Positions 7,706 through 27,317 of a stretch of DNA of 64,000 nt are shown here, piece after piece (within the stretch, counting starts at the first letter, position 1; every line of letters begins with the position of its first letter). The stretch spans positions 62,001 to 126,000 of the forward strand of contig JAUYSK010000023.1 in NCBI GenBank assembly GCA_030696345.1, read 5' to 3'. Both the position numbers and the translations under genes were made by a program. The DNA comes from Azonexus sp. (lineage in GTDB: Bacteria > Pseudomonadota > Gammaproteobacteria > Burkholderiales > Rhodocyclaceae). Under the pieces are notes generated by a model, which saw only the letters and a list, made by a program, of their open reading frames with translations, was not told where the DNA came from and ran no database searches.

Positions 7706-8527
7706 TTAGTACGTGAAACGCGGGGCAAGTTCTTCGAGATTGAACTCCCGTAGGATGGCTTCGGCCCGTTCGCGGGCATTTTTGCGGGGATTGCCGCGCT
7801 TGTTGGCGATGATCAGCTCGTTTTTCATCGAATGTTCCCAGCCGACCAGTTCAGTCACTGTCACGTCGTAGCCGTGCGATTCGAGCAGCAGGCAGCGCAG
7901 GACGTTGGTCAGGTGGCTGCCAAGTTCGCGGGTATGAATAGGGTGGCGCCAGAGTTCCGAAAGCGGTGTCTTGCTCAGTGATTCGTTCTTGCGGGCGCGC
8001 ATGCAGGCAGCGACTTCGGCCTGGCAACAGGGCACGAGCACGATGTGCTTCGCCTGCTTGGCGAGTGCGAAACGAATGGCGTCATCGGTTGCGGTATTGC
8101 AGGCGTGCAGCGCGGTGACGACATCGATTTGATCGGGCAGGGTGCTGGCGCGCGTGGATTCTTCGACCGTGACGTCAAGAAAACTCATCCGGTCAAAGCC
8201 CAGCCTTGCCGCCAGATCACGCGATTTTTCAACCAGTTCCTTGCGGCTTTCGATGCCGTAGATATGGCCGGTTTCCTGCTGCTTGAAGAACAGGTCATAA
8301 AGGATGAAGCCGAGGTAGGACTTGCCGGCGCCATGGTCGGCCAGACTTTGGGCATCGGCCAGGAGCGGTTCGATGAACTGGTAGAGGTGATAAACCTGTT
8401 TCAGCTTGCGCCGGGTGTCCTGATTCAGTTTGCCGTCCCGCGTCAGGATATGCAGTTCCTTGAGCAGTTCGATGGACTGCGCGGGACGGATTTCAGCAAT
8501 TTCGGCGGGGACGTTTTGTTTTTTCAT
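7706..8527 (-). CDS. SAM-dependent methyltransferase, METTL25/RRNAD1-like
   Basis: A Rossmann-fold methyltransferase domain. An N-terminal helical region with QSIELLKELHILTR is followed by LADHGAGKSYLGFILYDLF (motif I region), an acidic ribose residue in GIESR, and LHACNTATDDAI plus LVPCCQAE. That last pair is typical of the METTL25/RRNAD1-like group. The ATG at 8527 is used. A TTG 42 bases upstream (8569) has a better RBS-like AGAGGA, so the protein may be 14 residues longer. Six bases upstream of rlhA, hence probably cotranscribed; an RNA-related role is inference. Confidence 0.7.
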   Translation of the reverse strand: MKKQNVPAEIAEIRPAQSIELLKELHILTRDGKLNQDTRRKLKQVYHLYQFIEPLLADAQSLADHGAGKSYLGFILYDLFFKQQETGHIYGIESRKELVEKSRDLAARLGFDRMSFLDVTVEESTRASTLPDQIDVVTALHACNTATDDAIRFALAKQAKHIVLVPCCQAEVAACMRARKNESLSKTPLSELWRHPIHTRELGSHLTNVLRCLLLESHGYDVTVTELVGWEHSMKNELIIANKRGNPRKNARERAEAILREFNLEELAPRFTY

Positions 8528-16722: not shown

Positions 16723-16799
16723 GCGCCCGTAGCTCAGCTGGATAGAGTACTTGGCTACGAACCAAGGGGTCGGGCGTTCGAATCGCTCCGGGCGCACCA
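16723..16799 (+). tRNA. tRNA-Arg(ACG), first copy
   Basis: 77 bases with a 7-bp acceptor stem GCGCCCG/CGGGCGC, D arm GCTCAGCTGGATAGAGT, anticodon stem CTTGG/CCAAG with loop CTACGAA (anticodon ACG), T loop TTCGAAT and encoded CCA. Confidence 0.97.
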
Positions 16800-16853: not shown

Positions 16854-16930
16854 GCGCCCGTAGCTCAGCTGGATAGAGTACTTGGCTACGAACCAAGGGG
16901 TCGGGCGTTCGAATCGCTCCGGGCGCACCA
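16854..16930 (+). tRNA. tRNA-Arg(ACG), second copy
   Basis: Identical over 77 bases to the copy at 16723-16799, with encoded CCA, 54 bases downstream in the same transcript. Its 3' end serves as the left boundary of the island that follows. Confidence 0.97.
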
Positions 16931-24128: not shown

Positions 24129-25388
24129 TTAGGCCGCCGGATTCTCGGGGCCAGCCACGGGCAACCAAACCTTGAAACTAGTACCTTGACCGGGCTGGCT
24201 GCTCACGTCAATGCGGCCACCGTGTTTTTTCACAATATCGTAAGCCAGAGAAAGCCCTAGGCCGGTACCCTTGCCCACTGGCTTGGTGGTGAAAAACGGC
24301 TCGAAGATGCGTTTCATCACTTCCGGTGTCATGCCTTTGCCGGTGTCTTCGACGCTCACCCACGCCCAGGGGCCCTCCGCGCCGCTACTCAATGTGATCT
24401 TGCCCCGATCCTCGAACGCTTGCACCGCATTCGCCAGCAGGTTCATGAATACCTGATTGACCTGCCCCAGATGGCAACGCACCGGTGGTAGTTCACCGTA
24501 ACTCTTGACTACTTCGGCCTTGTGCTTAAGTTCGTTCCAGACCACGTTGAGGGTACTCTCCAGACCGGCATTCAGATCCGCCTCCTGCCAATCCGGGCTG
24601 TCGATGCGGGAGAAATCACGCAGATCCTGGACGATCTTCCGCACCCGTTCCAGACCGTCACGCGACTCGGCCAGCAGCGCCACCACGTCATCGCGCAGAA
24701 AACCAATATCCGCCTTTTCACGCGCGGCCTGCAGTGCCGGGTCGGTCGCTGTGCCATTCGCGTCGGCGCAGCGTTCATAAACATCGATCAGGAAAAGGAG
24801 TTCCTCAACGTGGCTCTTTAGGGTGCCCAGGTTGGAATTGACGTAACCGATCGGATTGTTGATTTCATGGGCGACCCCCGCCGCCAGCTGACCGACCGCG
24901 GCCATTTTTTCCGATTGCAGCAGTTGGACTTGGGATTGCTCCAGCTTGGTGTTGAGCAGCTTCAGATCGGCGTTCTTGAGCGTCAGTTCGCGCGTGAGGT
25001 TGTTCTGTTCGTGGTTGAGTGCCAGCACCTCGCGGGCCAGGCGCGCCTGTTCCACCGCGTTGACCTCGCCGAACAGCAGATAATCCGCGCCGTTCGTCTC
25101 GACCTTGACTTCGAGCGTCTGCGGCAGCCCGGCGGCGGTGCGCACATTCAGCAGCCGAGGTTGCGCCGTATCGGCGAGCCAGTCAGCCAGTGCAAGCTTG
25201 CCGCCGAAATTCAGCAGCATGGTGTGCCACGGCTGCCCCTCCAGCGGGACGCCAATGAGCGTCGTGGCGTGCCCGTTGGCGGCGAGAATCATGCCTGCAG
25301 GACTCACCCGCACCACCAACACGCTGCTACTTTCCCGGAGGAAGCTCCAGCCTAAGCCTGCGGGGAGTGACGGAAACTCATTGCTCAT
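24129..25388 (-). CDS. sensor histidine kinase, soluble, PAS-like N-terminus
   Basis: 419 residues without membrane segments. A PAS-like N-terminal domain (~15-110, VVRVSPAGMILAANGHA), a coiled coil (~115-165), HisKA with His174 in GVAHEINNPIGYV, and HATPase_c with N box VFMNLLANAVQAF, DTGKGM and GKGTGLGLS. No receiver domain or GAF/PHY domain is present. It is the last gene of a three-gene operon after the B12-binding protein and the heme-oxygenase-like gene, whose stop it overlaps by 11 bases. No cognate response regulator is adjacent. Confidence 0.85.
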   Translation of the reverse strand: MSNEFPSLPAGLGWSFLRESSSVLVVRVSPAGMILAANGHATTLIGVPLEGQPWHTMLLNFGGKLALADWLADTAQPRLLNVRTAAGLPQTLEVKVETNGADYLLFGEVNAVEQARLAREVLALNHEQNNLTRELTLKNADLKLLNTKLEQSQVQLLQSEKMAAVGQLAAGVAHEINNPIGYVNSNLGTLKSHVEELLFLIDVYERCADANGTATDPALQAAREKADIGFLRDDVVALLAESRDGLERVRKIVQDLRDFSRIDSPDWQEADLNAGLESTLNVVWNELKHKAEVVKSYGELPPVRCHLGQVNQVFMNLLANAVQAFEDRGKITLSSGAEGPWAWVSVEDTGKGMTPEVMKRIFEPFFTTKPVGKGTGLGLSLAYDIVKKHGGRIDVSSQPGQGTSFKVWLPVAGPENPAA

Positions 25389-26028
25389 AGGCCACCATGC
25401 GCTGCTCCAACTCGTCGATCGATGCCATGTAAGACGCGTTGGGATAGGGTTGCAAGGCAGCCTCCGCGCCCCAGCGGAATGCTTGCCCGCCGACCAGGAT
25501 GGGCAGTTCGGGATAGTTGAAGGTGACCGCATCGAGGGCCTTGATCAACGCCGGTAGGTTGAAATAGACGCTCAGCGACAGGCCAAGCAAATCGGGGCGG
25601 CGTTCTTCGATCAGGTGCAGCAAATCCGGCAAAGGCGTATTGGCGCCGAGGAAATAGCCGCGCCATCCGCGCAGTTCGCAGAAATCGGCAATCATCCTGC
25701 CGCCGAGTTGATGATATTCGTCAGCTACGCAGGCAATGATGATGGTCCGGTCAATCGCCGGCCGGCTGAACGCCTGTGCCTGCACAAGGGTCAGCATGTG
25801 CTGGGTGATGGCGGTGGACAAATGTTCGACCGCGACTGAAATGCGCTGTTGCTCCCACAGTTCGCCGACCTGATACTGGGCGCGCTGGAACAAGTCCGTG
25901 TACAACTCCTTCAGCCCCGTGCCAGCGGACACGAGTTCCTGCACGATCCGCGCACACTCGGTGCGGTTGCCGGAGAGCAAGGCCGCGAGGTAAGACGCAT
26001 AGGTAGCTTCGTCGATGGTATGGGTCAT
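25378..26028 (-). CDS. stand-alone CarH-like B12-binding protein
   Basis: 216 residues. A helical cap (~1-88) is followed by a cobalamin-binding Rossmann domain. The cap contains W58-x9-E68-H69, the arrangement that covers the adenosyl group in CarH photoreceptors, and the binding site has E104-Y-H106-x2-G109 (ExHxxG) as in CarH. RMIADFCELRGWRGYFLGAN, LLGLSLSVYFN and ILVGGQAF complete the fold. The MerR-type DNA-binding domain is absent, so output must go through a partner, most simply the overlapping histidine kinase. Light sensing is inference from these residues. Confidence 0.75.
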   Translation of the reverse strand: MTHTIDEATYASYLAALLSGNRTECARIVQELVSAGTGLKELYTDLFQRAQYQVGELWEQQRISVAVEHLSTAITQHMLTLVQAQAFSRPAIDRTIIIACVADEYHQLGGRMIADFCELRGWRGYFLGANTPLPDLLHLIEERRPDLLGLSLSVYFNLPALIKALDAVTFNYPELPILVGGQAFRWGAEAALQPYPNASYMASIDELEQRMVAYEQ

Positions 26029-27317
26029 GGTCGGGCCTCCTGGCGCGCCCGCGTCAGGGTGGCTTCCACCACTACAATCCAATCAGCCGGAAAACGCTCG
26101 GTGTCGGTCATCCAAGAGTGCAGGCTCTTGACCGCGTTCGTATTCCCCTCCAACTCGTCGGCAACAGCGGCACAGAGCAAGGCTCCGGTGTTGGGAAGCC
26201 GCGTGCTCCACTCCGGCCCCACCGCACTGTCGAAGTCGCCAGCCACTGCCTCAATTTGTTCATCGGTCAGATGTTTGCACCGCGCTGCGTGCAGTTCGGC
26301 GGCGGCGGGCAACAGCTTTTCGTAATCGGATTTTTTGCAGGGAGTGGCGGCGACAAGTTCCGCCACCAGGATTTCCAACTGAATCTGCAATAAAAGGGTG
26401 GGCATGCCACGGCCGGCCAGGACACGCCCTAGCCATTGCACCTGTTGGAGAATCTGGGTTGCTGGGTATTGATAGAGTGTGGCCTGCCAGGCGGCATCGC
26501 TACGTGCAAAGCGACGGCCCCGCTCGCCATAGCGCTGCTCAAAATAAGGAAATCTCTGCCAGCAAACATCGCCTGCCTTTACGGCTGCTTGCACTTCGCT
26601 GGCATCGGCCGGCACGGGATGGCGTCCTGCCTCAGGATTGACTGAAGTGACGAGATAGGTTTTTGACTCGGGTTGGAATGGATACAACGCCCGGAATATC
26701 GTTTCGAGTTTGGCAAACAATTGGCACGCCGCCTGAGCAACTTGACCGCGCTCTTCTGGACTCAATCGCAGTGCGTTCATCCGTTGTTTATAGTCTGCCC
26801 ACCGATCGTGAATCGCGGATCCGTAACTGTGTAGATAGGCCAATCCATCCTCGCCCGCGAGCAGGAGCGCACGAGCAACCATTGGTCGAACTACCACTGC
26901 GCCGAGCGTGGATCCTTCCAAAACATAGACCCAACCCAACAGCGAAATTGGCGCCTCGAGAGACACGAGGCGAAGCCCATCCGCCGTGTTCAGCGCCGCT
27001 TCCACCGCCTCCTTGAGGTCAGCCACGGTGCGCGGCTCGAAATAGCGCAGATCCTGCTGCAACAAGGGAAGCTTGATCATGCCGTTATTCCATACGGAGG
27101 CGATCCGTTCGTCGATGCAGTTTGCAAGGGCCTGCTCGATCACTCCGTGAATGGCCGACAAGGCGCGGAGTTGTCCGATATAGGATTCGAGTGGTAACTG
27201 ACAGGTAGCCAGAGCTTCAAAGAAAGGTGCGGTTTGCAGACGGGTATGGGCCGAAAAGGTCGCTGCCTTGAGTTCTTCCATCAAGCTCAATTGCTGCCCG
27301 AAGAGTCCTGTTTTCAT
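26025..27317 (-). CDS. heme-oxygenase-like protein with C-terminal extension
   Basis: 430 residues. The N-terminal 190 match bacterial heme oxygenases of BphO type: proximal His24 in LKAATFSAHTRLQ, and distal-helix YVLEGSTLGAVV with the Gly-rich kink. Heme oxygenases convert heme to biliverdin, CO and iron. The C-terminal 240 residues are helical and unrecognised (SKTYLVTSVNPEAG, FPYFEQRYGERGRRF). Start at ATG 27317. The stop overlaps the B12-protein start (ATGA). No phytochrome gene is in the window, so either biliverdin or CO is used elsewhere or the domain binds rather than cleaves heme. Confidence 0.75.
   Translation of the reverse strand: MKTGLFGQQLSLMEELKAATFSAHTRLQTAPFFEALATCQLPLESYIGQLRALSAIHGVIEQALANCIDERIASVWNNGMIKLPLLQQDLRYFEPRTVADLKEAVEAALNTADGLRLVSLEAPISLLGWVYVLEGSTLGAVVVRPMVARALLLAGEDGLAYLHSYGSAIHDRWADYKQRMNALRLSPEERGQVAQAACQLFAKLETIFRALYPFQPESKTYLVTSVNPEAGRHPVPADASEVQAAVKAGDVCWQRFPYFEQRYGERGRRFARSDAAWQATLYQYPATQILQQVQWLGRVLAGRGMPTLLLQIQLEILVAELVAATPCKKSDYEKLLPAAAELHAARCKHLTDEQIEAVAGDFDSAVGPEWSTRLPNTGALLCAAVADELEGNTNAVKSLHSWMTDTERFPADWIVVVEATLTRARQEARP

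Follow-up and report, generated by a model that had tools for sequence, protein, structure and literature searches.

The 64,000-nucleotide stretch of an Azonexus sp. genome analysed here (contig JAUYSK010000023.1, positions 62,001 to 126,000; 'the window') carries on its minus strand a three-gene operon that is likely to encode a histidine kinase linked to a split photocobilin, which would include the enzyme for making its biliverdin. The open reading frames (ORFs) at 27317–26025, 26028–25378 and 25388–24129 specify, respectively, a fusion of a heme oxygenase with a bilin-type globin (gene 1, 430 aa), a stand-alone CarH/photocobilin-like B12-binding protein (gene 2, 216 aa) and a soluble sensor histidine kinase lacking any strongly hydrophobic segment (gene 3, 419 aa). 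The overlaps of 4 bases (genes 1 and 2) and 11 bases (genes 2 and 3) given in a preliminary description of this locus agree with these coordinates; among relatives the exact overlaps differ, the 4-base overlap recurring in one orthologous locus (L002) and short gaps being found in two others (L001 and L004, with the starts chosen). Related genomes show the same gene order and domains again, so the locus is not a chance arrangement. Gene order, domain identities, the predicted globin fold, aligned pocket residues and conservation are the observations of this analysis.

Residues 11–209 of gene 1 (26691–27287) match the Pfam family Heme_oxygenase (PF01126) at 75.3 bits against a cut-off of 23 (E 7e-21), and the whole protein is 80%, 66% and 65% identical to its orthologues in L001, L002 and L004. 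This domain, similar in sequence to meningococcal HemO, keeps the EGS(T/S)LG distal-helix motif (EGSTLGA in the window), and His24, the candidate proximal histidine, is invariant in all four fusions and aligns with a histidine of a second heme oxygenase in the same genome. By sequence, the domain should make biliverdin. Gene 1 is not the only biliverdin source of the organism, since there is that second heme oxygenase, whose gene has a bacteriophytochrome on one side and a MerR-type B12 regulator on the other.

Pfam gave no match above cut-off in gene 1 beyond residues 11–209. The preliminary description, which correctly named the heme oxygenase, regarded the C-terminus as unrecognised; however, it is recognisable as a globin of the biliverdin-binding type also found in photocobilins (residues about 235–348, 26274–26615, with D274, W295, L300, R303 and M305-P306), followed by a helical tail of about 80 residues (350–430, 26028–26270). 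Biliverdin binding in SasPcob depends chiefly on Asp270, whose counterpart in AbPcob, a poor biliverdin binder, is a histidine; the AbPcob pocket also includes Trp289, Leu294, Arg297, Val299 and Val303 (PMC10979010). With AbPcob numbering matched by spacing to its printed sequence stretch, this histidine aligns with D274, and the other five residues align with W295, L300, R303, M305 and L309; D274 would accordingly be equivalent to SasPcob Asp270, which lies outside the stretch used. Among 15 aligned globins, the aspartate is present in 14 (glycine in L049), the tryptophan in all, Leu300 in 14 (arginine in L049) and Arg303 in all, with position 309 being variable and the loop between aspartate and tryptophan being five residues shorter in the group to which the window globin belongs. 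Where BBAG-2 globins carry an RGMC motif (PMC10151467), gene 1 has R303-G-M-P306 (RGMP) and hence no cysteine for bilin attachment; photocobilins likewise have no linking cysteine (PMC10979010). A heme ligand in this domain is unlikely, because residues 234–342 contain no histidine. The fused globin is predicted, from its sequence, to be of the phycobiliprotein/photoglobin type and to hold biliverdin non-covalently. The tail is conserved in the four fusions and in four stand-alone globins aligned with them, and gave no Pfam match above cut-off.

Gene 2 (25378–26028) comprises the Pfam domains B12-binding and B12-binding_2, and its nearest solved structures by sequence are SasPcob (8j2x, 9e-24) and AbPcob (8j2y, 1e-16), with weaker matches to CtMerR (9e-11) and TtCarH (5c8a, 2e-7). 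As first described, it has the CarH cap residues W58-x9-E68-H69 and the ExHxxG motif (E104-x-H106-x-x-G109), with H106 as the candidate lower ligand, and it has no DNA-binding domain, Pfam finding nothing outside the B12 domains at E ≤ 1. It therefore shares the cap and the ExH B12 pocket with CarH, and the W-...-EH and E/DxH motifs with the CarH-like domain of photocobilins, but differs from CarH in lacking the MerR DNA-binding domain. The published light-response signature of cobalamin-binding domains consists of GxxW, EH, GxxxP and GxxH (PMC11796333); the first three are present (G55-W58, E68-H69 and G128-P132), and the fourth is replaced by D103-E-Y-H106 (DxxH). A further difference from CarH is Glu59 directly after W58, at the place where in TtCarH cap residue W131 is followed by H132, the upper ligand in the light state (PMC11796333); SasPcob also has no bis-His light state (PMC10979010). 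The sequence evidence supports gene 2 being a stand-alone B12 domain of the CarH/photocobilin type that is linked with a histidine kinase, and cobalamin binding is predicted.

Gene 3 (24129–25388) contains HisKA and HATPase_c and, in line with the preliminary description, no receiver (Pfam). The PAS-like domain named there is less clear-cut, as PAS_8 scores below cut-off (E 0.15) and the case for this domain comes from conservation across relatives. Together with a coiled-coil-like linker, it occupies residues about 1–150 (24939–25388), the proposed docking input. Between the window and L003 or L004, the input is 62–64% identical and the kinase core 31–32%; compared with L001, the core is 87% and the input 61% identical. 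An alignment was made of 19 hand-trimmed partner proteins whose genes adjoin B12 or globin-B12 genes (L011 being included on alignment alone, and the L054 row being without its first half), with input similarity traced by phmmer from the window domain to kinases and GGDEF-EAL proteins, and from the domain in G034 to the partners of single-chain proteins. The partners comprise histidine kinases, hybrid kinases, and GGDEF and GGDEF-EAL proteins (L011 and L036 were called cyclases by eye), and for nine of the 19 (L003, L004, L023, L047, L049, L051, L052, L053 and L054) Pfam recognizes GGDEF, EAL or HD_5 in the partner or in an adjoining response regulator. HD_5 is linked to cyclic di-guanosine monophosphate (c-di-GMP). 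From these sequences, we propose that the PAS-like input serves for docking, here and in the other B12-linked kinases and cyclases that have it. Inspection by eye of the ORFs of 18–34 kb showed no response regulator beside the window kinase.

Fusions of heme oxygenase and globin were found at four loci, the window, L001, L002 and L004 (the records of the latter three bear the label betaproteobacterium or Rhodoferax, and L001, L009 and L024 are counted as one contig), and in all four the fusion is followed by the B12 gene and then the kinase. One search returned seven loci: three carry the fusion, L003 retains a remnant of it, L005 belongs to a contig that begins just upstream, and neither L006 nor L007 has a heme oxygenase or globin match. 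The expectation that homologous loci keep the three genes together thus holds for every fusion locus but not for the close relative L003, in which the fusion is gone and the B12 protein and kinase are kept; because of this retention, the B12–kinase pair may be the core of the system. The remnant comprises the first 29 heme oxygenase residues (E 2e-5), with the start codon altered, and directly after them a stretch resembling tail residues 416–427 (weak alone, E 0.9). It is the product of an internal deletion (L003, 2844–3717), and a small toxin–antitoxin-like gene pair lies just upstream (by eye).

The globin also occurs in other arrangements. It stands alone ahead of a B12 gene and a partner in L023, L047 and L049, lies next to a gene resembling heme oxygenase and to what looks by eye like a MerR-type B12 regulator in L048, and is joined to the B12 domain in seven single-chain proteins, each followed by a partner (G034, G613, G506, G805, G1048, G933 and G1036). 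L023 is a paralogous locus of the same genome (contig C16, 12791–8028) encoding a stand-alone globin, a B12 protein, a hybrid kinase and a receiver-HD protein, with no heme oxygenase match in the 18 kb covered. Counting the own genome, a single-sequence globin query matched one of 369 genomes of the class, and a profile search matched three of 399 in the order, nine of 297 in the family (including one match to the tail that was dropped) and one of 398 in the phylum. These lists are samples, since the known positive G026 is in none of them; they suggest a rare module with a patchy distribution. In L005 and L006, an acidobacterial and an archaeal metagenome-assembled genome, respectively, two 156-aa ORFs of similar appearance follow directly after the kinase (2065–2535 and 7853–8323); they gave no Pfam match above cut-off and are possibly distant globins. 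The L006 genome is labelled Methanospirillaceae archaeon, and its pair of B12 protein and PAS-like kinase points to gene transfer or mis-binning.

With a bilin-type globin at the C-terminus of gene 1, the sensor is likely to have two pigments, biliverdin and adenosylcobalamin (AdoCbl), and the system falls close to the photocobilins (PMC10979010) and to the BBAG-2 globins (PMC10151467). In photocobilins, AdoCbl and biliverdin lie edge to edge, red light absorbed by biliverdin leads to Co–C cleavage in AdoCbl, the SasPcob dark dimer falls apart, and a cyclase can be activated in trans (PMC10979010). By analogy with these experiments, which suggest both chromophores, their coupling, the change from dark dimer to light monomer and control of a partner in trans, the heme oxygenase domain would convert heme to biliverdin, which the fused globin would keep non-covalently, and this globin would dock on gene 2, a dimer holding AdoCbl under W58, E68 and H69. 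Green light via B12, or red light passed on from biliverdin, would then break the Co–C bond and disrupt the dimer, and the altered B12 protein would act on the PAS-like/coiled-coil input to switch the kinase, whose response regulator would be encoded elsewhere. We infer the direct hand-over of biliverdin to the fused globin, and control of the kinase through the PAS-like domain as its docking site, from synteny, gene fusion and conservation. The complete scheme, a self-loading two-colour photoreceptor acting in trans, in which gene 1 supplies biliverdin to its own globin as a red antenna for the AdoCbl of a second protein, and the kinase is switched through a docking domain interchangeable among kinases and c-di-GMP enzymes, is put forward tentatively, at somewhat less than even chances.

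It could instead be that the B12 protein and kinase form a sensor by themselves, responding to green light via AdoCbl or to a cobalamin or redox signal, with the heme oxygenase–globin protein tuning or protecting it. Retention of the B12 protein, the kinase and a response regulator with GGDEF domain in L003 after loss of the fusion, the B12–kinase pair of L006 with no recognisable heme oxygenase or globin, and the function of AbDPcob despite poorly bound biliverdin (PMC10979010) all point in this direction. However, most of the biliverdin pocket residues are kept in the globin, and its association with B12 in three forms (as a fusion with heme oxygenase, as a free protein and as a fusion with B12) argues for a joint role, so that we regard this alternative as unlikely.

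The two other explanations concern gene 1. Its similarity to meningococcal HemO would suit an enzyme that breaks down heme for iron or heme turnover, holds the product in a second domain and is only co-transcribed with the kinase pair; the co-location in four of four loci and the relatives that have the same globin beside a B12 gene without heme oxygenase make this improbable. That gene 1 provides biliverdin for phytochromes is less credible still: although the genome has three phytochrome matches and the L002 locus includes an upstream ORF with a phytochrome domain, the second heme oxygenase directly adjoins one of the phytochromes, and gene 1 has an acceptor in its own globin.

The preliminary description had noted that no phytochrome or MerR regulator is nearby. 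This is correct for phytochromes on the window's contig; the three phytochrome matches lie elsewhere in the genome, as does the MerR-type B12 regulator adjoining the second heme oxygenase. The latter locus (L028, contig C18, minus strand) is one overlapping string of MerR-type B12 regulator (3095–2133), heme oxygenase (2136–1471) and bacteriophytochrome (1502–3), a second B12/bilin light locus in this genome. Elsewhere in the window, a tandem pair of tRNA genes with equal scores is found at 16723–16796 and 16854–16927.

The photocobilins SasPcob and AbDPcob and the window system alike combine a CarH-like B12 domain bearing the W/E-H cap with a phycobiliprotein-like biliverdin globin (PMC10979010). 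The window system differs from them in encoding the two domains as separate genes (G034 is one of the relatives with a single-chain form) and in joining the globin to heme oxygenase; moreover, its partner protein is a histidine kinase, whereas the known photocobilin output is a diguanylate cyclase, which is activated in trans as well (PMC10979010). The likeness to BBAG-2 lies in biliverdin-binding globins linked with a separate B12 protein and heme oxygenase (PMC10151467), from which the window differs by RGMP instead of RGMC, the fusion of heme oxygenase to globin and the kinase in the operon; no bilin reductase was noticed by eye at the window locus. The photoglobin of Schneider et al. (2022) reportedly has a bilin pocket and is predicted to be coupled to the B12 domains of signalling proteins; the window globin would differ from it in its heme oxygenase fusion. 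The association of bilin-binding globin, B12 protein and heme oxygenase (PMC10151467), and single-chain photocobilins and their coupling to a cyclase (PMC10979010), are already published. In the literature searched, which covered parts of PMC10979010, PMC11796333, PMC10151467, PMC11480375, PMC11908464, PMC8508746 and PMC11011852, supplements and the 2022 photoglobin paper being outside this scope, no description was found of a heme oxygenase–globin fusion or of a photocobilin-type histidine-kinase operon. The suggestion that a two-component system with a free B12 photoreceptor would be new therefore stands, within that scope, for the arrangement; given a two-pigment sensor near photocobilins and BBAG-2, a B12 light module acting on a separate enzyme is not wholly new.

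If the proposed scheme is true, the photocobilin combination of biliverdin and B12 need not reside in a single chain: separate proteins can provide it, and its output can be a two-component system. The scheme would also mean that the enzyme making a chromophore can be fused to the domain that holds it, and that a single adaptor domain connects one light module to kinases as well as to c-di-GMP enzymes. What bilin-binding globins do beside B12 proteins, described as not yet known (PMC10151467), would thereby become testable. For optogenetics, the system would offer a module that could bring along the red-light pigment it needs.
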